Assembly (NCBI RefSeq): GCF_001042635.1
Contig: NZ_AP012331.1
Span: 992,001-1,056,000, forward strand
DNA from: Bifidobacterium scardovii JCM 12489 = DSM 13734
Lineage (GTDB): Bacteria; Actinomycetota; Actinomycetes; Actinomycetales; Bifidobacteriaceae
Length of the DNA: 64,000 nt
Direction: 5' to 3'
Positions 4,386-51,827 of this stretch are shown here, piece by piece; position 1 is the stretch's first letter, and each line of letters starts with the position of its first letter. Under the pieces are notes generated by a model. It searched no databases and had not been told where the DNA came from. It was given only the letters and a program-made list of their open reading frames with translations. The position numbers and the translations under genes were made by a program.

Positions 4386-4408
4386 GATGATCCTTTCGTT
4401 GGAATGCT

Positions 4409-4478
4409 GGATGATTGATGGATTGATTGATGGATTGGTGGATTGATTGATGGATGGATGGATTGATTGATGGATTGG
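4409..4478. repeat. GATT/GATG tetranucleotide microsatellite
   Basis: About 70 bp consist almost only of GATT and GATG units, ending about 24 bp upstream of the start codon of the 299-residue membrane protein (4385, minus strand). The following ~80 bp up to 4560 also contain GGTCG/GGCTG short repeats. Such tracts change length by slipped-strand mispairing. Position between start and likely promoter makes spacing-dependent control possible. Confidence 0.85.
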
Positions 4479-32203: not shown

Positions 32204-32331
32204 GTTTTCGTGTAGGATCGGCAGTTTTTATACTTCTGTTTTCGTGAATGATCAGCTACTTCTATACTTCTGTTTTCGTGTAAAATGGCATATATCTATA
32301 CTGTTGTTTTCGTGTAATGAGGTGATTGCTC
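32204..32331 (+). repeat. 34-bp iterons before the first DUF4143 ATPase
   Basis: GTTTTCGTG occurs at 32204, 32238, 32272 and 32306, exactly 34 bp apart. Units 1 and 2 match at 27 of 34 positions. Three of them carry TATACT (32229, 32263, 32297), a good -10 hexamer, at the same phase. The array ends 18 bp before the start codon at 32332. Length 34 is not a multiple of three and stops occur in all units, so it is not coding. Confidence 0.85.
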
Positions 32332-33693
32332 ATGTTGAAGCGCAAAGTGCTGGATAAGCTGATCGCATGGCAACAAAAAGCGGGCGGGCGTGAGGCGCTT
32401 CTCATTGAAGGTGCTCGCCGTGTGGGCAAAAGCACCATTGCCAAAGAATTCGGCCGCACTCAGTACAAGTCGTATATTCTCGTCGATTTCGCGCGTTTGC
32501 CGCGTGACGTTCGCGACATCTTCGAAAACCAGCGTGACGACTTTGACACATTTTTCATGCTGCTGTCTGCGTATTACCGTACGCGACTGTATAAGCGGGA
32601 ATCGCTGATTATTTTCGATGAGGTTCAGCGGTATCCGGCGGCGAGGGAACTCATCAAATATCTGGTTGCGGATGGCCGGTATGACTATGTGGAAACTGGT
32701 TCGCTGATCTCCATCAAGCGGAACGTGGCGAATATCGTCATCCCCTCCGAGGAGCGGAAAATGGATATGGGGCCGCTCGATTTTGAGGAGTTCTGCTGGG
32801 CCATGGGGGAGGAGCTGCTTGTTGAAACGATTCGCAAATCGTTCGAGAGTTTGATCCCATTGCCTGATGCGCTGCATAAGCGGGCAATGAGACTATGGCG
32901 TGAATACTTGTTGGTGGGCGGCATGCCGCAGGCTGTTGCCGATTATGTCGAGTATCGCGATTTTGGCGAGGTGGATTCAATCAAGCGCGGTATTCTGCAA
33001 CTGTACAGCGATGATACCGGCAAGTTCGCCAATGGCGATGCCGGCCGCGTGAGGGGCATTTTCGCTCAGATTCCAGGGCAGCTGTCCAAGCATGAGAAAC
33101 GATTCACTCTGGCATCGGTCAACAAGGATGCTCGATCCCGCGAATACGATTCGGCATTCTTCTGGTTGGAAGACGCCCGCTTGGTGAACCTGTGCCGTAA
33201 TTCGACTGACCCTTTGGTAGAGCTGGGATTGTACGAAGATAACGATTCGTTCAAATGCTATATGGCAGATACCGGCTTACTGGTGTCGCAGGCGTTTGCC
33301 GACCGAGAGACAACGCCGGATGATGTGTATCGGGATATTCTGTTCGATAAACTCTCGCTCAACGAAGGAATGTTGGTGGAGAATGCGGTCGCTCAGCAGT
33401 TCCGAGCGAATGGGCGCAAGCTGTATTTCTTCTCGCGCTCGGATAGGGCGGATGCCTCGAAGACCATGGAGATAGACTTCCTCATCGTTCGGGAATACGA
33501 TAATGCCGCGATGAAACCTCGTATCAGTCCAATTGAAGTGAAATCCACGAAACGATACGGCGTATCTTCGCTCGACAAATTCCGTAAAACATATGCCCAG
33601 CGATTGGGCAAGGAATACGTTCTGCATCCCCGCCAACTTGAAGTGGATGGAGAACGTATCAAGCTGCCGCTGTATATGGCCCACTGCCTGTGA
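32332..33693 (+). CDS. AAA ATPase with DUF4143 (COG1373)
   Basis: A 453-residue protein. Walker A GARRVGKSTIA is near residue 30, Walker B LIIFDEVQRYP near 97, then the helical middle with LLVGGMPQAVADYVEY and DTGKFANGDAGRV. The C-terminal DUF4143 part holds ...EIDFLIVREYD and IEVKSTKR, resembling the PD-(D/E)xK nuclease arrangement. Function of the family is unproven; roles in DNA binding or as defence-type ATPases have been proposed. Composition is poorer in GC than the neighbours. The ATG at 32332 has GAGGTGA upstream. A paralogue lies at 35225, and both are preceded by iterons. Confidence 0.85.
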   Translation: MLKRKVLDKLIAWQQKAGGREALLIEGARRVGKSTIAKEFGRTQYKSYILVDFARLPRDVRDIFENQRDDFDTFFMLLSAYYRTRLYKRESLIIFDEVQRYPAARELIKYLVADGRYDYVETGSLISIKRNVANIVIPSEERKMDMGPLDFEEFCWAMGEELLVETIRKSFESLIPLPDALHKRAMRLWREYLLVGGMPQAVADYVEYRDFGEVDSIKRGILQLYSDDTGKFANGDAGRVRGIFAQIPGQLSKHEKRFTLASVNKDARSREYDSAFFWLEDARLVNLCRNSTDPLVELGLYEDNDSFKCYMADTGLLVSQAFADRETTPDDVYRDILFDKLSLNEGMLVENAVAQQFRANGRKLYFFSRSDRADASKTMEIDFLIVREYDNAAMKPRISPIEVKSTKRYGVSSLDKFRKTYAQRLGKEYVLHPRQLEVDGERIKLPLYMAHCL

Positions 33694-35224: not shown

Positions 35225-36604
35225 CTACACGGGGTGCACCGTCAGCGAAAAGTCGCCGATGGTGCTGATGGTCGAGGGCGAGGCCAGATCGCAGACATCT
35301 CGCAAGCAGTACGTGGCATACAGTGGGAGATAGGTTGTTCCGCCGTCCTGCGCGATATTGGAGCGGGACAGCACCACGCCCTGCGAGACGCGATATTCGG
35401 CATTGGCCAGTACGGCATCAATGGCGGCGTGCGTGCGGTAGCTTCGCCCCGACTTGACCTCGAACGGCATTACGGAATCGGTATTCGTATCTGCGATGAA
35501 ATCAACTTCGCCATGTTTCTTCGCCATGTAGTAATACAGCGGAATGCCTTGCGCCGTCAGCTCCTGAGCGATTACGTTCTCGTAGATGGCGCCCAGGTTC
35601 GGGGATGAATCATCGAGGTATGCGGCCTGAGCGGTCGGCTGCGGGTATCGTGCCATGAGCATGCCGGTATCAGACTGATACAGTTTGAACTTCGGCGATT
35701 GCGCCGTGCGTTTCAATGGCAATTTCGGTTCGGTGACGCAGTCAGTTTTCAATGCCACGCCCGCATCGACAAGCCAGAGAAAATCCTTCTGATTGCGATC
35801 GTACCGGGCGCCGGGGCTGATGGAGGAGACGGCGAATCTGCCGTTGCCGTCGGTCAGCTGAGTGGGGAGCTGATCGAAGATCTCCTGCACCTGCAATGCA
35901 CGATTGCCCGCGTACTGCGAGATATCGTGTCGATATTGCCGGTTCAGCTCGTGCTGCACCGCGCGCACAGCCGCCAAATCACCTTTGGTGTCCAGAAAAC
36001 GTTGCACGACTTCCGGCATGCCGCCGACCACCAGATAGGTGCGGAAGTTCGTCATCATCGCATCGTGAACATACTGGTCGATCGGTGTGACCGACCGGCA
36101 GGACTCTCGGATGCTTTCAAGTGTCGTCTTCCGTACGCCGATAGCCCAGCAGAATTCCTCGAAATCCATGGGACGCATGGTTTTTTCGATGACCGAGCCA
36201 ACGGGATAGGATCGTACGCCTTTGAATTCGGTGCCAAGCATGGAGCCGGAGAACACGTAATCGAAACGACCGTCGGCCACCAGGAACTTGACCATGGTCA
36301 TCACGTCCGGGGCCTCCTGCACCTCGTCGATGAAAATCAATGTATTGCCCGGGACGAGCGTTGAAGGTGAGAACAAGGTCAGACGGCTGATGAACTCCTG
36401 CGCGTCGTTCGCCGATGCGAGCGCGCGGGCCGCCTGCCGGTTCTCGTACAGGTTGATTTCAAGGTAATGGGCGTATTCATGTTTGGCGAACTCGCGTACT
36501 GCGTAGCTCTTGCCGATCTGGCGGGCGCCGGTCAGCAGCAGTGCTTTGCCGGTGCCGCTGCGCTTCCATTCCAGCAGATCGTTCGAGATTTTGCGCTCAA
36601 GCAT
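35225..36604 (-). CDS. AAA ATPase with DUF4143 (COG1373)
   Basis: A 459-residue paralogue of the ATPase at 32332. Walker A GARQIGKSYAV (~27), Walker B TLIFIDEVQEAPD (~90), SGSMLGTEFKG sensor segment, the TYLVVGGMPEVVQRFL middle and the C-terminal GEVDFIADTNTDSVMPFEVK. The last motif again gives D, E and K in nuclease-like order. The role is unknown. ATG 36604 follows GGAAAGGAACTGCC. Upstream at 36655-36753 lies an AT-rich 33-bp iteron array, unlike anything else nearby except the iterons of its paralogue. It is convergent with the GntR gene (21-bp gap). Confidence 0.85.
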   Translation of the reverse strand: MLERKISNDLLEWKRSGTGKALLLTGARQIGKSYAVREFAKHEYAHYLEINLYENRQAARALASANDAQEFISRLTLFSPSTLVPGNTLIFIDEVQEAPDVMTMVKFLVADGRFDYVFSGSMLGTEFKGVRSYPVGSVIEKTMRPMDFEEFCWAIGVRKTTLESIRESCRSVTPIDQYVHDAMMTNFRTYLVVGGMPEVVQRFLDTKGDLAAVRAVQHELNRQYRHDISQYAGNRALQVQEIFDQLPTQLTDGNGRFAVSSISPGARYDRNQKDFLWLVDAGVALKTDCVTEPKLPLKRTAQSPKFKLYQSDTGMLMARYPQPTAQAAYLDDSSPNLGAIYENVIAQELTAQGIPLYYYMAKKHGEVDFIADTNTDSVMPFEVKSGRSYRTHAAIDAVLANAEYRVSQGVVLSRSNIAQDGGTTYLPLYATYCLRDVCDLASPSTISTIGDFSLTVHPV

Positions 36605-36654
36605 GGCAGTTCCTTTCCGAATCCCTTACGAGAGTAACATTTTCCATCCTGTTT

Positions 36655-36753
36655 GTACAAAATACCGCATTTTGAAATGGGGTTTTGGTGCAAAATACCG
36701 AATTTTAAAGTAGGGTTTTGGTGCAAAATACCGTTCAAAATGTCGTGCAGAAT
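36655..36753 (-). repeat. 33-bp iterons before the second DUF4143 ATPase
   Basis: GTRCAAAATACCG occurs at 36655, 36688 and 36721, exactly 33 bp apart; the first two units match at 28 of 33 positions, the third over its first 13. Each ends with GGGTTTTG. The array is AT-rich against a GC-rich background and starts 51 bp upstream of the ATPase start codon (36604, minus strand). Confidence 0.85.
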
Positions 36754-36807
36754 GCTGCGCGCATGGCGTCTCAAAAGTGTAGGCAAGGGGCGTATGCGGC
36801 TGTGTGA

Positions 36808-44028: not shown

Positions 44029-46089
44029 TTAAAGCCCAAAACCAATTAAAGTAAGCAGAGGAGCAATGATCATATCAATAATTTTAATTCCGATAAAAGG
44101 AGTAATCATGCCGCCTAAGCCATAAATCAGCATATTTCTTGCCAGCATCTTTCCAGAAGACATCGGACGATATTTAACACCTTTCATAGCCAGAGGAATC
44201 AGGCATGGAATGATAATAGCGTTAAAGATTAAGGCGGACAAAATGGCGCTGTAAGGGGTAGCCAGGTGCATAATGTTCAAAACCTGAAGCTGAGGAATCG
44301 CCATCATAAACATCGCAGGAATAATTGCGAAATATTTTGCAATATCGTTTGCAATGGAGAATGTGGTAAGACTTCCTCGTGTAATAAGAAGCTGTTTACC
44401 AATTTCCACAACTTCCAAAATCTTTGTGGGATCGGAATCCAGATCGACCATGTTGGCAGCTTCTTTTGCGGCAGTAGTACCGCTGTTCATTGCCAAGCCG
44501 ACATTTGCTTGAGCCAATGCAGGGGCATCGTTTGTGCCATCGCCTGTCATGGCTACAATTTTTCCTTCAGACTGTTCTTTCTTAATTACGTCAATTTTGT
44601 CCTCCGGTTTGCATTCTGCAATGAATCCGTCAACACCGGCTTCCTTTGCAATAGTAGCAGCAGTAAGCGGATTATCGCCGGTGCACATGATCGTTTTGAT
44701 GCCAATGGCGCGCAGCCGCTCAAAACGCTCTACCATACCGGGCTTTACAGTATCTTTCAGATAAATGACACCTAAAATCCGATCACCCTCACAGACAGTA
44801 AGGGGTGTGCCGCCTAAGCTGGAAATCTTATCAACCTGTTCATGGAGATCTTCAGGAATTACTCCTCCAGGAGATTTCACATACTGCTCAATCGCTTCTG
44901 CTGCGCCTTTACGAACCTTTGTGCCATCCGGAAGATTGACGCCGCTCATTCGAGTCTGCGCGGTAAATTCAATAAATTCCGAACCGGAAATTTCTTCGCT
45001 GTTATCGCCCAAACGACGGGCAAGCTCCAAGGTAGATTTGCCTTCAGGGGTTTCGTCATGCAGGCTGGTGAGTGCTGCGCAGCGGATCAAATCACTGCGG
45101 TTTGCACCGCCTACCGGAAAGAAATCAGCAGCAAGACGGTTACCATATGTGATTGTACCAGTTTTATCAAGAATCATGGTATCTACGTCGCCGCAAGCCT
45201 CCACAGCTTTACCGGACATAGCGATAACATTAAAGCGGGTAACACGATCCATGCCAGCAATACCGATTGCAGAAAGCAGGCCGCCAATGGTGGTAGGAAT
45301 CAGACAGACAGCCAAGGCGATTAGAGTGGAGGTTTGCAGCTGCACACCGGAATAAATACCAATAGGATACAGGGTTACAATGACGATCATAAAGATAATG
45401 GTCAGAGATACCAACAGAGTGCTCAGCGCAATTTCATTCGGAGTCTTCTTACGAGAAGCACCCTCTACCAGTGCAATCATACGGTCAAGAAAGCTGTTAC
45501 CTGCATCGGAAGTAATACGGATTTTCAGCCAGTCAGATACAATCGTAGTACCACCGGTAACGGAGCAGAAGTCACCGCCGGATTCCCGAACAACGGGAGC
45601 AGATTCACCCGTAATGGCAGATTCATCCACAGAAGCAATGCCTTCAATGACCTCTCCGTCGCCGGGGATAATTTCACCGGCAGAAACCATTACAACATCG
45701 CCTTTTTTCAGTTCGCTGGAAAGAACAACCTTTTCTGTCCCGTCTTCCATGAGCAAACGGGCTTTGGTATCTTTCTGCGTTTTTTTGAGGCTTGCTGCTT
45801 GTGCTTTGCCGCGACCTTCTGCAACAGATTCAGCGAAGTTTGCAAACAAAACGGTGATGAATAGCACTACACAGACGATAATATTGTAAACTCTCAAATT
45901 GGTGCCATCGCTTACATCACCAAACAACCCGGGGAAAAAGGAAAGAATCAGGGTAATAAAACATCCTACTTCCACCACGAACATGACGGGATTTTTCGTC
46001 ATGTACACGGGATTTAATTTTGTAAAGGAGCCGATAATCGCCTGACGGAATATTTCAGGTGTAATCAGTTTCTGATTTTTCTTGCTCAT
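44029..46089 (-). CDS. kdpB: K+-transporting P-type ATPase subunit KdpB
   Basis: A 686-residue P-type ATPase of the Kdp type. The actuator TGES motif is in [11 protein letters not shown], the phosphorylated Asp in [14 protein letters not shown], and the hinge in [18 protein letters not shown]. Seven membrane helices are in the usual places. It hydrolyses ATP to drive K+ through KdpA in the cytoplasmic membrane. Its start is 12 bp from the kdpA stop. Confidence 0.97.
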
Positions 46090-46101
46090 AAAAGTTCTTC
46101 C

Positions 46102-47880
46102 TTATGCCCAAAGGGTCAAATGTTCCGCAATGGGGCCAAGTGCAAGTACCGGGAAAAATGTCAGCGCTGCAAAGATGTAAACAACAAACACCAGAATTAC
46201 AGCAAAGCTTACAGTATCAGTATGCAGGGTACCCGCAAATTCGTTCACAAAGCGTTTTTTCATCAAAGATCCTGCAATCGCCAGCTGAATGACAATGGAG
46301 AGATAGCGACCGAAGAACATAGCAAGACCTGTGGTGATATTCCAGAACATTGTGTTGTCAGCCAAGCCCTCAAATCCGGAACCATTGTTTGCGGCAGAAG
46401 AAGCATACTCATAAAGCACCTGAGAAAATCCATGAAATCCCGGATTTGTAATTCCTTCCATTCCAGCCTGCGTTCCAACGGCCAAAGCAGAGAACGCCAG
46501 AATCAACAGCGGATGAATGATGATACACAGGGCAGTCAGCTTCATCTCACGGCCTTCAATCTTTTTGCCCAGATATTCAGGTGTACGACCAATCATCAGA
46601 CCGCAGATAAATACCGCCAAGATTGCATACATGATCATGTTCATGAGCCCAACACCCTTACCGCCAAACACAACGTTGAGCATCATGTGAAGCATCGGGA
46701 TCATGCCGCCCAAGGGGGTTAAGGTATCATGCATGTTATTCACAGTACCGGTTGTAAAGGATGTTGTAGTGGTGGTAAACATTGCAGACTGTGCAATACC
46801 GAAGCGGACTTCCTTACCTTCCATACTACCCATAGACTGGCTTAAACCAACATCCGCAAGTGCAGGATTTCCCTGGCTCTCTGCCCAGAAGCATACAGAA
46901 AGACCAATCAGGAAAATAATACCCATAGCAGCGAAAATGCTGCGGCCTTCACGACCATACATCCATACGGTAAAGCTCTTGCGAATTTTGCGCTGAGACT
47001 CAAATGCCTGCTCTGCATCCAGACCAGACTTTGCCTGTGCCATTTCACGCTTGCGGTCACGCACCATTTTGCCAAAGGTGATAACGCACGCACCCGGCAG
47101 CAGCATCATGGAATAAAGCTCAATCAGATTGGTAATGATGGTTGGATTCTCAATAGGTGTACTGGAGTTTGCACCCAAAAATCCACCGCCGTTTGTTCCA
47201 AAATGCTTGATGATTTCCAATGCTGCAACAGGGCCCATTGCAATTACTTGTTTGGCTCCTTCAATGGTATCTACCATAACATTTCCGGAGAAATTCTGCG
47301 GAACGCCCTGCCATACCAGCAACAAACCGCCGACGATAGAAAAAGGCAACAGCACACGAGTAGTGATGCGAACCAGATCTGCGAAAAAGTTTCCTACATT
47401 GTCTTTTGTTTTTCCGGCCAAGCCACGGATGAATGCAACACAAGCAGCATATCCGCTTGCTGCAGAAACGAACATCATAAATGTAATGACCAACATCTGA
47501 GATAAGTAAGACAACCCAGACTCACCGGAATAGTGCTGGAGATTGGTGTTGGTCATGAAGCTGATAATTGTATTGAAGGAAAGGGATTCCTCCATACCTC
47601 CGATTCCGTTGGGATTGAAAAGGGCGATACTTTGAATTCTCAAAATGATGTATCCCAGAAGAATCATTACACCGTTTGTTGCAAGTAAAGCCAAAGCGTA
47701 TTTTTTCCAGTTCATTCCGTTTTGCGGTTTAATGCCGCTGATTTTATAGATAACGCCGTCTACACGGTCAAAAACCGGATCGGCAAAAGTATGTTTTCCA
47801 GCTGCGATATGATAAACATAAACACCTACTGGAACTACCATTATCAGATAAAGGATAATGGTCAATATAATTTGTAGCAT
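46102..47880 (-). CDS. kdpA: K+-binding translocating subunit KdpA
   Basis: A 592-residue channel-like subunit with four membrane-pore-membrane repeats. Selectivity-filter regions are present, for example FMTNTNLQHYSGESGLSYLS, GTNGGGFLGANSS, FTTGTVNNMHDTLTPLGGM and AANNGSGFEGL. It binds K+ from outside at micromolar levels. It is slightly longer than the common 557-residue form. GGAGGAAATTATC precedes ATG 47880. Confidence 0.97.
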   Translation of the reverse strand: MLQIILTIILYLIMVVPVGVYVYHIAAGKHTFADPVFDRVDGVIYKISGIKPQNGMNWKKYALALLATNGVMILLGYIILRIQSIALFNPNGIGGMEESLSFNTIISFMTNTNLQHYSGESGLSYLSQMLVITFMMFVSAASGYAACVAFIRGLAGKTKDNVGNFFADLVRITTRVLLPFSIVGGLLLVWQGVPQNFSGNVMVDTIEGAKQVIAMGPVAALEIIKHFGTNGGGFLGANSSTPIENPTIITNLIELYSMMLLPGACVITFGKMVRDRKREMAQAKSGLDAEQAFESQRKIRKSFTVWMYGREGRSIFAAMGIIFLIGLSVCFWAESQGNPALADVGLSQSMGSMEGKEVRFGIAQSAMFTTTTTSFTTGTVNNMHDTLTPLGGMIPMLHMMLNVVFGGKGVGLMNMIMYAILAVFICGLMIGRTPEYLGKKIEGREMKLTALCIIIHPLLILAFSALAVGTQAGMEGITNPGFHGFSQVLYEYASSAANNGSGFEGLADNTMFWNITTGLAMFFGRYLSIVIQLAIAGSLMKKRFVNEFAGTLHTDTVSFAVILVFVVYIFAALTFFPVLALGPIAEHLTLWA

Positions 47881-47900
47881 GATAATTTCCTCCTGCTGGT

Positions 47901-47978
47901 TTAAAATTTTTCTGGGTGTACCAATGCATAAACTAAATATCCACCCAGCAGTAAAACAATAATTCCAAGAACAATCAT
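47901..47978 (-). CDS. kdpF: KdpF membrane peptide
   Basis: A 25-residue peptide (MIVLGIIVLLLGGYLVYALV, then HPEKF) with the typical single helix and the GYLVYALxxPEKF end of KdpF. KdpF stabilises the KdpABC complex. AAGGAGGAAAGAAC lies directly upstream, and kdpA follows after 20 bp. Confidence 0.95.
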   Translation of the reverse strand: MIVLGIIVLLLGGYLVYALVHPEKF

Positions 47979-47990
47979 GTTCTTTCCTCC

Positions 47991-48089
47991 TTATTCATTT
48001 CGATCTACTTGCTTTTGGCACCAGCTGATTAACAAAAAAACGAGCCCGACACAGCCTGCCAAAATTGCTATCATGATAAAATCCATCAT
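47991..48089 (-). CDS. 32-residue membrane peptide at the head of kdpFABC
   Basis: MMDFIMIAILAGCVGLVFLL and ISWCQKQVDRNE form one transmembrane helix with a charged tail. The ribosome site is AGAGGAGGATACC and kdpF starts 12 bp after its stop. Conserved position in front of kdpF suggests a component or regulator of the complex; I do not know a named family. Confidence 0.75.
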   Translation of the reverse strand: MMDFIMIAILAGCVGLVFLLISWCQKQVDRNE

Positions 48090-48415
48090 AACGGTATCCT
48101 CCTCTTTGGTTTTACACAAAATATTGTAGCAGTTTTACTGTGAAATTGGTCTTAGCTTTTTTTATATCAGATAAAGATTGCATTAAGAAAAGCGTCTGGC
48201 CCCATCAGGTCAGACGCTTTCAAATTTTTATCTATCGAATAGAATCAGAGGGAGATAAAGCTCTACTTGTAGTCATGAAGCTTTTGTTCATAGATATACA
48301 GTACACATTTCCAACTTGGATTTTTATATAAACATACTCGATGAACAAAAATAACGTTGCCCATTTATGCGAGATGGACAACGTTATTAAGGAATTTTAA
48401 TTTATAGACTTTTCT
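48090..48415. promoter_or_regulatory. kdpE-kdpF intergenic region with terminator
   Basis: Next to the kdpE stop is a hairpin with 15-nt arms (48350-48364 with 48374-48388, one mismatch) followed in the minus direction by a T-rich tail, so it should end kdpDE transcription. A second hairpin, AGCGTCTGGCC with GGTCAGACGCT, lies at ~48190-48220. The kdpF operon therefore has its own promoter, in the AT-rich part around 48095-48170, the expected KdpE target. Confidence 0.65.
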
Positions 48416-49120
48416 TTATTGCCGTATCATTCGATACCCTACACCAATATGTGTTTGAATATATTGAGGGGCAGAAGGATTTTTCTCAATCTTTTTCCGC
48501 AGAGTAGCCATAAACACCCGCAAAGAAGGTGTATCTGATGCAGATGCGATTCCCCATACTTCTTTTAAAATGTAATTATGGGTCAAAACTTTCCCGGTAT
48601 TTTTAGCAAGAACACAAAGCAGTTTGTATTCAATAGGAGTCAAATGAATCTCTTTTTCATCCATATATGCGCATCCAGCAGCAAGATCAATGGTCAATTC
48701 TCCATTGCGGTATACACTGGTTTGTACTTGGGAAGAAGCTTCATCTGTCCTGCTTCTGCGTAAAGCCACGCGAAGTCGGGCCAAAAGTTCATCAATACTG
48801 AATGGTTTTGTTAAATAATCATCTGCCCCAGCATCTAATGCTTCTACCTTGTCCTGATCCTCGCTTCTAGCGCTTACGACGATAATAGGGACATTGCTCC
48901 ATCCACGAACTTTTTGGATAATTTCAGCCCCATCCATATCCGGTAAACCTAAATCCAAAATAATGACATCAGCGTTATAGGACACCGCATCCAAAAGAGC
49001 GCCTGTTCCATTTTTCGCAGTATGATACTGATAATCCTGTGTATCCAACGTTGTTCGTATCAGGTTTGTGATAGCCGGATCATCCTCTATCACAAGAATT
49101 TTTGGTTTATACATGATCAA
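48416..49120 (-). CDS. kdpE: response regulator KdpE
   Basis: A 234-residue OmpR-type regulator: receiver with VIEDDPAIT, Asp in VIILDLGLPDMDG and Lys in YLTKPFSIDELLARL, then a winged helix (HLTPIEYKLLCVLAKNTGKV, VFMATLRKKIEKNP). It activates kdpFABC under K+ limitation. It overlaps kdpD by 14 bp, so the pair is co-translated, with kdpD first. Confidence 0.95.
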   Translation of the reverse strand: MIMYKPKILVIEDDPAITNLIRTTLDTQDYQYHTAKNGTGALLDAVSYNADVIILDLGLPDMDGAEIIQKVRGWSNVPIIVVSARSEDQDKVEALDAGADDYLTKPFSIDELLARLRVALRRSRTDEASSQVQTSVYRNGELTIDLAAGCAYMDEKEIHLTPIEYKLLCVLAKNTGKVLTHNYILKEVWGIASASDTPSLRVFMATLRKKIEKNPSAPQYIQTHIGVGYRMIRQ

Positions 49121-51827
49121 ATTTCACTTCCTCTAAAGGTAATGTAAAGGAGAACACCGCACCATGCGGTTTATTATCGCTGACTGAAATTTCTCCTCCG
49201 TGAGCGTCTACAATAGATTTACATAAGCTCAAGCCCAAGCCTAACCCTCTGCGGCTGTCTGCTTTGCCGATACCTGCCGTGTAAAACATATCAAATAAAT
49301 GCAGCTTGGCTTCATCTGAAATACCCGGTCCGTCATCTGCAATACGGATACGAACCATTTTCTTCTCTTTTTTCGCTGATAAACAGATATGAGAACCTTC
49401 CGGCGTATATTTAATGGCGTCATTTACAATGTTGATAATCACTTGAACAATTAACCGAACATCCATTTTCGCCATTAAAAGATCATCCGCAAGCTCTACC
49501 GATATCTCATGTTCAGCTGCTTTCCGGTCCACATGAGATATCGCCTCCCGAAACACATCGTCGATTAGTTCCGCATTCATCTGAAGATGCATTGTTCCGT
49601 TTTCAATCCGGGTAATCGACAAAAGATTTTCCGTGAGATTTACAAGCCACATCGAGTCATCATAAATAGAACTATAGATCTCCTGTTTTTTGCTTTCATC
49701 CAGCAAAATGCTTTTTTCCATTAAAACACCGGCATTACCGCTGATACTGGTAAGCGGCGTACGAAGGTCATGAGAAATCGCACGCAATAAATTGGAACGA
49801 AGACGTTCTCTCTGTGTTTCCATTTCAATCGCTTGTTTTTCAGCCCGAAGTCTGCGGCGTTCTAATATCAATCCGCATTCGTTTAAAAGTGCAATCAGCA
49901 AATTTTTCTCAAACACATCCAACGGCGGATAGTATTTGGACGGAATCCCTATCACGCCCATCACTTCCTGATTCCCTCGGACGGATAAATATAGATTCTG
50001 TGCGTGAGATAATGTATTAGTAGTTGCTCCGGCGTGTTTGTTATTTTTTACAACCCAGTCTGCAACGCCTACTTCTTCCGCAGTCATTGCTCCAATCAAT
50101 TTATTGGTTTCTGACTGTGGACAAACCTGAAAATCAAGTTCTTTTTCTTTTACTACCAAAGAGTACAAAATCGGCCGATCCAGAAGAGCCCGTACCTGTT
50201 CTGCTGCAAGAGCAATAATTTCCTGTTCATCCCGCCCTTGCTGCATCTTCTGGCTGCTATTCATCAGAAGCTCCATATAGTAAGCTTTTTGAGCAGATTG
50301 GCGAGCCTGTTTTTTTACAGGGATAGCTAATGTACTAGAAATAATACTGGCTACCAACATAATCAAGAAGGTAACCGGATAGTCAGGATCGGTGGCTTCT
50401 AATGAAAATCTTGGAACTGTAAAAAAGAAATTAAAGGAAATGACGCTGAGCAGTGATGCAAGCGCACCGTATAAATGACCATGCGTCCAAATTGCGGTAA
50501 GTAAAACTCCCAAAATATACACAGTAATGATATTCGCTTCCCGAAGACCAGCGGTGTAAAATCCAAAACTGATGATTGTTGCACAAAGTGTAATCAGTAC
50601 AACTTTCAGCAGATCAATCCACCTAAATTTCGGTTCCTCTTTTCGAAGTGAATTAAATTTCTTCTTATAGAGCGGCTGAGTATCCGGAATGATATAAATA
50701 TCAATATCTCCAGCTAATTTTGTCAATTTGTCGGCTAATGTCTTACTCCGTAAAAATATTGTGGATTTGTGATTTGTTCTTCCCAGAACAATTTTCGTAA
50801 TACCGCTAACCTTAGCATATTCTGCAATTTGTACAGCCGGATCATCACCATAAACAGTAGAAATTTGAGCCCCTAATTGCTCTGCAAGCCGAAGATTATC
50901 CCGTAATCTTTTTAAGCTGTCACCTTTCAATTCTTTTGTTTCAGGAGTTTCAACAAACAAAGCTGTAAATCCACTGTGGAATGCCTCTGCCATACGAGCA
51001 GCTGTTCGGATTACTTTGGCGTTGGAAGGAGAGTTTGAAAGACAAATTAAAATATGCTCTCCTGCTTTGGCAACTGTTTCATTTCCGCTTTTTTGAGCGT
51101 TCCGACTTAATCGATCAGCAGTACGACGCAAAGCAATTTCACGAAGCGCCGCCAAATTATCTCTTGTAAAGAAATGATTGAGCGCACGGGAAGCCTGACT
51201 TTTACGATATACTTTTCCCGACTGTAACCGGGCAATTAAATCGTCCGGTTCAATATCAACCAGTTCCACTTGATCTGCAGAGTCAAACACAGAGTCGGGA
51301 ATTCGTTCACTGACGGCAACTTGTGTAATAGAAGCCACCAAGTCATTTAAAGATTCCAAATGCTGAACATTAACGGTTGTATAAACATCGATGCCTGCCC
51401 GCAGGAGTTCTTCCACGTCTTGATACCGTTTAGCATGACGGCATCCTGCCGCATTGCTGTGTGCTAATTCATCTACAAGCACTATTTGAGGATGACGTTT
51501 AAGAGAAGCATCTAAATCGAATTCTTTGAGTTTAATTCCTTTATAATCAACTTCTTTGTTGGGAAGTTGTTCTGATCCTTCGAGCAATGCAAGCGTATCA
51601 GGTCTGGTGTGACGCTCAATATACCCAACTACGATATCAATCCCTTGTTTTTGTGCCTGATGTGCGGCTTTAAGCATAGCGTAGGTTTTACCGACACCTG
51701 CCGCATAACCAAAGAAAATCTTCAGACTCCCTTGTCTTTGATTGTCTATATGCTCTTTATAAGTACCTTCCATATTTTCCAATGATGCATCACTCCATTT
51801 TTCTATTTTTTTTTGATCATACCACAT
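49107..51827 (-). CDS. kdpD: K+-sensing histidine kinase KdpD
   Basis: A 906-residue kinase. Residues ~30-240 are the KdpD domain with Walker A FGYAAGVGKTYAMLKAA, followed by a universal-stress-like domain (ILICLSNSPSNAKVIRTA), four membrane helices at ~405-500, a GAF domain, the H box AISHDLRTPLTSISG (~685) and the ATPase domain ending in RGLGLGLSLCKSIVDAHGG. It senses low K+ or turgor. All features and the low GC fit Clostridia-type KdpD. A hairpin with 15-bp arms lies behind it at 51858-51900. Confidence 0.96.
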   Translation of the reverse strand: MWYDQKKIEKWSDASLENMEGTYKEHIDNQRQGSLKIFFGYAAGVGKTYAMLKAAHQAQKQGIDIVVGYIERHTRPDTLALLEGSEQLPNKEVDYKGIKLKEFDLDASLKRHPQIVLVDELAHSNAAGCRHAKRYQDVEELLRAGIDVYTTVNVQHLESLNDLVASITQVAVSERIPDSVFDSADQVELVDIEPDDLIARLQSGKVYRKSQASRALNHFFTRDNLAALREIALRRTADRLSRNAQKSGNETVAKAGEHILICLSNSPSNAKVIRTAARMAEAFHSGFTALFVETPETKELKGDSLKRLRDNLRLAEQLGAQISTVYGDDPAVQIAEYAKVSGITKIVLGRTNHKSTIFLRSKTLADKLTKLAGDIDIYIIPDTQPLYKKKFNSLRKEEPKFRWIDLLKVVLITLCATIISFGFYTAGLREANIITVYILGVLLTAIWTHGHLYGALASLLSVISFNFFFTVPRFSLEATDPDYPVTFLIMLVASIISSTLAIPVKKQARQSAQKAYYMELLMNSSQKMQQGRDEQEIIALAAEQVRALLDRPILYSLVVKEKELDFQVCPQSETNKLIGAMTAEEVGVADWVVKNNKHAGATTNTLSHAQNLYLSVRGNQEVMGVIGIPSKYYPPLDVFEKNLLIALLNECGLILERRRLRAEKQAIEMETQRERLRSNLLRAISHDLRTPLTSISGNAGVLMEKSILLDESKKQEIYSSIYDDSMWLVNLTENLLSITRIENGTMHLQMNAELIDDVFREAISHVDRKAAEHEISVELADDLLMAKMDVRLIVQVIINIVNDAIKYTPEGSHICLSAKKEKKMVRIRIADDGPGISDEAKLHLFDMFYTAGIGKADSRRGLGLGLSLCKSIVDAHGGEISVSDNKPHGAVFSFTLPLEEVKFDHV

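Follow-up and report, generated by a model that had tools for sequence, protein, structure and literature searches.

Direct-repeat arrays before DUF4143 ATPase genes vary with the proteins they precede and may be cognate autoregulatory sites

Introduction

Why should two ATPase genes of one family, in one bacterial genome, each be preceded by a tandem array of direct repeats, with nearly the same period in both but with a different sequence in each? The question is raised by the window, a stretch of 64,000 nucleotides of Bifidobacterium scardovii DNA in which two paralogous genes for DUF4143 ATPases, here called gene A and gene B, follow arrays A and B, respectively. A sequence-only reading of the window had proposed that every ATPase possesses repeats of its own, with repeat and protein changing together.

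The family has been described as the phage-defence candidate PDC-S01, in which ATPase domains are fused to a nuclease of the PD-(D/E)XK superfamily, and which ranks fourth in frequency among the defences of all prokaryotes, with validation pending for most candidates of the PDC kind, according to the available text of PMC12988326. It is also described as very abundant in the rumen (PMC13356809, as far as the part available to us goes). The portion of the main text of PMC12988326 that was at hand contains none of the terms "promoter", "autoregul-" or "iteron", and its passages with "repeat" or "upstream" concern unrelated matters; no report of promoter arrays for DUF4143 or PDC-S01 was found in the literature searched, which left aside preprints and most subscription journals.

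Two repeat arrays in one window

The 33-bp array that had been claimed at 36655-36753, before a DUF4143 ATPase, is confirmed. Array B occupies positions 36652..36733 on the minus strand, and its 3' end lies about 50 bp ahead of the gene B ATG; Tandem Repeats Finder reports 36658-36733 with period 33, 2.3 copies, 90% matches and a score of 124. Read in the sense of the gene, on the minus strand, its units begin at 36733, 36700 and 36667, share the core CGGTATTTTGYACM, and end in a partial unit. The self-match score of the array, 34.0, is far above the 12.5 that the best of 2000 dinucleotide shuffles attains, and a motif search of the 3.16-Mb genome finds three copies of GGTATTTTGYACM, every one of them within array B. 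A degenerate fourth core, GCATTCTGCAC, may be present at 36745..36755 on the same strand, 24 bp upstream of the next core.

Array A, at 32204..32317 on the plus strand, consists of 34-bp iterons with four copies of the core GTTTTCGTG and scores 35.0 in the self-match, against 13.0 in shuffles. The motif TTTTCGTG recurs in it at 34-bp steps, and the only three pairs of TTTTCGTG spaced by 22-28 bp in the whole genome lie within array A. The two arrays had also been said to take the same position relative to the gene start, and here the positions are similar without being identical, the distance from the start of the last core to the ATG being 26 bp for gene A and 61 bp for gene B. When 555 overlapping 230-bp tiles of the window were scored in the same way, a TGAT-type simple repeat at about 4.4 kb (4408-4477) alone equalled arrays A and B in self-match. 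Elsewhere in the window, 44029-51827 on the minus strand carries clustered genes for KdpA, P-type ATPase and KdpD domain proteins, which fits a potassium-uptake locus.

Domain architecture of the ATPases

Gene B (35225..36604, minus strand) encodes 459 amino acids and matches PF13173 (AAA_14) with 88.1 bits and PF13635 (DUF4143) with 97.6 bits; gene A (32332..33693, plus strand, with its ATG at 32332 and an in-frame TTG at 32326) matches the same two families with 78.7 and 79.7 bits, all above the gathering cut-off. Besides DUF4143 and AAA-type domains, the Pfam search of both proteins gave neither a Rep initiator nor a ToxN-family domain. The two proteins are 32% identical, and the closest named relatives of gene B among the matches listed are from Bifidobacterium tibiigranuli (75% identity) and B. 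rousetti (71%). Gene B fits the PADLOC PDC-S01 model PDLC04792 over residues 1-437 (E 1.6e-187), and gene A fits PDLC04786 over residues 3-455 (E 6.1e-108); by these model matches, both count as PDC-S01, an abundant and largely unvalidated phage-defence candidate.

Three parts can be assigned within gene B. By inspection, an AAA-type ATPase domain would take up residues 1-147 (36164..36604). Secondary structure and inspection, together with the association with the iterons described below, place a winged-helix region at residues 210-320 (35645..35977), in which residues 268-280 are the putative recognition helix on secondary structure and inspection. At residues 338-440 (35285..35593, all on the minus strand) follows a nuclease-like domain that we take to be of the PD-(D/E)XK fold, and in its alignment of 57 sequences, made up of gene A, gene B and 55 of the 66 eligible proteins from named loci, D368 is invariant and E382 and K384 are nearly so (gene B numbering). 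The same fold name is used for the nuclease part of DUF4143/PDC-S01 proteins in the family literature, in the available portion of PMC12988326. The predicted fold is closest to the archaeal ATPases 2QEN and 2FNA, and then to CED-4/NLR and AAA+ proteins including Orc1/Cdc6, a list of neighbours outside which the nuclease part lies.

Distribution across the family

Array B exemplifies a trait of the family. By the rule that the 230 bp upstream must beat all 30 shuffles, arrays were called before 182 of 217 distinct family genes, a set reached from 252 hit frames, of which 239 had a start, 218 were distinct and 217 had enough upstream sequence. They precede 110 of 129 genes in the gene-B clade, all 31 in the gene-A clade and 33 of 34 in a clade of about 400 residues, are rarer in two smaller clades (7 of 17 and 1 of 6), and belong to genes from several bacterial phyla and from archaea; the clades near gene B are over-represented in these counts because similarity to DUF4143 or gene B was the criterion by which genes were collected. 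The absence of iterons from relatives had been named beforehand as an outcome that would speak against the idea, and it was not borne out, the genes without a callable array being a minority of 35 of 217; inspection of 20 of these revealed degenerate copies in several. The array test is also passed by about 10% of ordinary genes. At the named loci, an array stands before 69 of 84 DUF4143 genes, and the 230 other genes taken from these loci and the window have one in 24 cases; a stricter cut of 4 SD leaves 62 of 84 against 17 of 230. These named loci, from genomes of several phyla, are the 80 best among 196. A separate 80 stretches, from relatives in the genus, were hand-picked, with most places containing an internal stop left out and a few flanks misplaced; start codons were set by alignment or by the distance to Walker A. 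All five archaeal loci among the 80 named ones (L135, L136, L138, L143 and L150) beat 25 shuffles, with periods of 33-34 bp.

The genome of the window itself, a single contig, holds nine DUF4143 matches, and in five of them (L001, L004, L005, L006 and L007) the array beats all 60 shuffles, that of L007 overlapping the first codons of the gene as assigned; a sixth gene, L002, has four cores spaced by 33, 32 and 33 bp. L001 (C1:2698242-2698724) is a paralogue of the type of about 400 amino acids whose frame is apparently broken near Walker A and which has kept its 23-bp array. Within the genus, 85 of the 101 sampled genomes carry DUF4143 genes, the number of matches reaching 26 in one genome, and loci were taken from the matches listed. 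Arrays precede 19 of 25 and 18 of 20 genes in two complete Bifidobacterium sets, 21 of 29 genes in five genomes to which named loci had led, with 30 of 75 places there covered, and 14 of 24 DUF4143 genes in a phylum sample (24 analysed of 28 fetched loci). The last three collections partly overlap the set of 217, the arrays of L335, L322 and L332, for example, repeating those of L083, L112 and L149, and were not added to it; the complete and five-genome sets omit L274 and L334, which have no start, and L307 and L308, which are weak or fragmentary. As a control, ATPases with DUF234 from the same phylum gave a repeat call in 3 of 11 genes (of 15 places located, 13 were taken up, 2 of which had no start), namely a 33-bp pair far upstream, one 16-bp repeat and one 39-bp repeat.

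Relatives with DUF4143 also occur on plasmids, in 59 of 72,556 records. Three of them (L339-L341) are from Parabacteroides, Agathobacter and Collinsella, with called arrays in the latter two; the Collinsella relative lies near AbiE-type genes and that of Parabacteroides near a HipA-family gene. Among genes on plasmids or phage contigs, two of four pass the array test.

Spacing, strand and promoter position

A period of 31-35 bp is seen in 101 of the 110 called arrays of the gene-B clade and in 30 of the 31 of the gene-A clade, and one of 21-24 or 44-46 bp in all 33 of the clade of about 400 amino acids; among 501 core spacings of up to 60 bp, 411 measure 22-24 or 32-34 bp. The spacing classes thus step by about one DNA turn, as would be expected if neighbours keep the same relative orientation. 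Only this step is used here, because the vector length of the helical phase is nearly flat (0.79-0.80) between 10.0 and 11.0 bp per turn. Other layouts were also seen. In L094, L108 and L109, cores 12 bp apart are mixed with 33-bp steps. A separate DUF4143 class (L300, L302, L306, L333 and L279) has periods of about 40 bp (39-41) and palindromic-looking units, which are perhaps bound by dimers, and L244 and L256, which lack a called tandem array, carry ACTCA...TGAGT-type inverted repeats ahead of the start.

Cores occur at 12.9 per kb on the gene strand of the 230 bp upstream, at 0.03 per kb on the opposite strand of the same stretch, and at 0.00-0.14 per kb elsewhere on either strand; the off-target rates are the informative ones, since the cores were picked within that 230-bp stretch. 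Strong sigma-70-like promoters were found in 39 of 173 upstream regions, against 5% of shuffles, and of the -10 elements of these 39 clear promoters, 15 lie inside the called array, 22 downstream and 2 upstream. The promoter of L221, for instance, has TTGACA, a 17-bp spacer that contains a core, and TATACT. Overlap of cores with the interval from -35 to -10 was dropped as evidence, as cores spaced by 33 bp overlap a 23-bp interval almost by necessity. At family level, then, sites are repeated at the promoter of the presumed regulator itself, as in an operator, while at gene B the promoter is weak or absent: the stricter sigma-70-like scan found none there, and a looser one gives a weak candidate at 36631..36659 on the minus strand, composed of TGTACA (36659-36654), 17 bp and TACTCT (36636-36631), whose putative -35 overlaps the last iteron of array B. 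Between array B and gene B no terminator was found, with 0.9 expected by chance. RNA structure is weak across 122 arrays (mean z -0.79, with 14% below -2). Their position at the promoter makes control of the gene that follows the first reading of the arrays.

Repeats and proteins vary together

Arrays and proteins were compared for 130 members of the gene-A and gene-B clades, drawn from 157 proteins of more than 380 residues, of which 27 had no called 31-34-bp array. Iteron similarity follows protein identity with a Mantel rho of 0.24, against a maximum of 0.08 in 300 permutations and 0.006 in the reverse-complement control, so that the lack of co-variation, the other outcome that had been named as adverse, was not what we observed. 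The similarity of the best 10-bp stretch climbs with protein identity on the gene strand only: the share of pairs above the 95th percentile of the reverse-complement control is 5% at 30-35% identity (2623 pairs), 35% at 55-60% (113 pairs) and 89% at 80-90% (70 pairs).

Simple inheritance could explain part of this co-variation, and three further checks were therefore run. In 272 pairs with 60-85% protein identity, local similarity is 20.0 in the array region and 9.8 in the DNA at -500..-260, where shuffled sequence gives 9.6; the far region outscored the array region in 11 of the 272. Columns that are constant within one array match the partner array in 66% of cases and variable columns in 39% (285 ordered pairs), the corresponding reverse-complement controls being 48% and 32%. 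Over 7671 pairs with 30-85% identity, the winged-helix region predicts iteron similarity with a beta of 0.32 [0.20, 0.43] and is the largest predictor in 291 of 300 bootstraps, other regions ranging from -0.02 to 0.07. In the 45-85% pairs the nuclease domain reaches 0.28 against 0.26 for the winged helix, which is largest in 140 of 300 bootstraps, and in the 55-85% pairs the winged helix is ahead again (0.46, largest in 255 of 300). The assignment to the winged helix is thus no more than likely, as the nuclease domain does equally well in the 45-85% pairs. A sharp map of specificity residues was rejected, as sliding scans were broad, with signal also at residues 41-66.

The paralogues that share a genome allow a second view. 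One genome holds up to 19 called arrays that are mutually unlike, and in the two complete sets core matches number 44 and 46 in the genes' own upstream regions, against 2 and 3 in the upstream regions of all other paralogues. Co-resident arrays have a mean similarity of 7.08 against 7.09 in the reverse-complement control (171 pairs) and of 6.81 against 6.73 (153 pairs), and pairs scoring at least 9 number 5 of 171 (control 3) and 1 of 153 (control 0). The relatively similar proteins L265/L267 (66% identity) and L291/L293 (63%) are absent from the pairs with alike arrays. For array-bearing genes of the two clades, identity above 60% occurs in 0 of 52 pairs within genomes and in 195 of 2433 between genomes. 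A limit on coexistence, or incompatibility, is not claimed, given that the complete sets hold the pairs at 66% and 63% and that orthologues are by nature one per genome. Both parts of the proposal, repeats private to each ATPase and their co-variation with it, are supported over the 130 arrays and the two complete genome sets; the purposes offered alongside, copy control, silencing of transferred DNA or defence, are conjectural.

Discussion

Cognate autoregulation is the simplest account of a single strand, stepped spacing, placement at the gene start and change paralogue by paralogue. We consider it probable, on grounds of sequence comparison, that each PDC-S01/DUF4143 ATPase binds its own repeats through the winged helix and thereby controls, probably by repression, its own promoter. 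The winged helix would read the core of the array before its own gene, neighbouring protomers on repeats 33 (or 23) bp apart would touch each other and bind cooperatively, and the assembled ATPase would cover its own promoter, most likely repressing it. The gene might thus be kept low until DNA titration, ATP state or a signal from an invader frees the ATPase. We infer the binding, its cooperativity and any connection with defence, and likewise that the effect is one of repression; the arrays could equally serve activation.

Repression could also be a side effect of an array that is a platform for the main job of the protein. The NLR-like ATPase-nuclease would then be stored or assembled on the repeats, which act as self-marker or nucleation site, until invading DNA or proteins trigger it. 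This we judge unlikely. It would suit the predicted fold, near 2QEN/2FNA and then CED-4/NLR and AAA+ proteins including Orc1/Cdc6, the invariant or nearly invariant PD-(D/E)XK residues, the fit of the PDC-S01 models (E 1.6e-187 and 6.1e-108), and L012, whose nine perfect copies and one partial copy within the 250 bp examined go beyond the needs of a simple operator; the cores nevertheless sit at the gene's own start and on a single strand, and outside its own array neither of the window motifs recurs in the genome. Binding of the repeats by some other host factor, with array and gene merely inherited together, is very unlikely: the upstream elements of orthologues are partly inherited in any case, and for one subset of pairs the repeats are followed equally well by the nuclease domain and the winged helix, but the DNA just past the array is not conserved, the winged-helix region is the best predictor over the full pair set, and a shared host factor is disfavoured because paralogues of the same genome carry unrelated arrays.

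We see even less room for the repeats being iterons that serve a mobile or replicating element, whether at its origin or in homing, and on which the ATPase would act as initiator. Orc1/Cdc6 does stand among the fold neighbours, relatives do occur on plasmids and on contigs filed as phage, and the array is conserved where the DNA beyond it is not; against this, nine copies lie on one chromosome, Pfam finds no Rep domain, and cores are scarce downstream of the gene (0.02 per kb). Least probable of all is an RNA of the type III toxin-antitoxin kind, whose units, transcribed from the repeats, would capture the protein. In type III loci, too, tandem repeats stand immediately ahead of a nuclease-type gene, but these loci are defined by a terminator, according to the available part of PMC5086642, and none was found at the window array. 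This absence, the placing of 37 of 39 clear promoters within or downstream of the array and the lack of RNA structure (mean z -0.79 in 122 arrays) disfavour the RNA reading, and the difference of about one DNA turn between spacing classes also stands against it.

Cognate autoregulation can be extended to a bolder and, in our view, doubtful picture, in which PDC-S01 would be a self-contained sensor-effector on a private array that is operator, assembly platform and self-marker in one, with up to about 20 orthogonal pairs per genome resembling incompatible iterons, forced divergence, and a code that relates winged helix to site. If this were true, protein-array pairs would have to diverge in order to coexist, as incompatible iteron systems do. 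In either case a likely cognate site before most members examined offers a handle on the family, as a co-crystal ligand, as a reporter promoter and as a means of testing self-specificity. About two hundred naturally matched pairs of protein and site are gathered here; more would help in learning winged-helix recognition, and such pairs could yield insulated regulators.

Comparison with known systems

Orc1/Cdc6 proteins with their origin repeats and the iteron plasmids are a known kind of ATPase or initiator system on repeated sites, from which the DUF4143 system differs by its added nuclease domain, by repeats that lie at promoters, by many paralogues on one chromosome and by having no Rep domain. 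ATPases with DUF234 are sister ATPase-nucleases that likewise join a P-loop ATPase to a C-terminal domain, and they differ in giving a repeat call in 3 of 11 genes only. Type III toxin-antitoxin loci share the tandem repeats immediately before a nuclease-type gene, whereas the DUF4143 loci show no terminator where it was sought, in the window, a promoter in or after the array where one is clear, DNA-phased spacing and a protein of another family.

With the PDC-S01 candidates of PADLOC, genes A and B share the model matches and the fusion of ATPase and PD-(D/E)XK nuclease (PMC12988326, available text), and the descriptions of these candidates, in the parts of PMC12988326 and PMC13356809 at hand, mention neither promoter repeats nor autoregulation. 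The new part relative to the described PDC-S01 is the cognate arrays. Autoregulated operators built of phased direct repeats are a known kind of site, and the arrays resemble them in having repeats at the gene's own start, on one strand and near whole helical turns; they differ in that here the regulator would be the ATPase-nuclease itself, with up to 19 unlike arrays in one genome.
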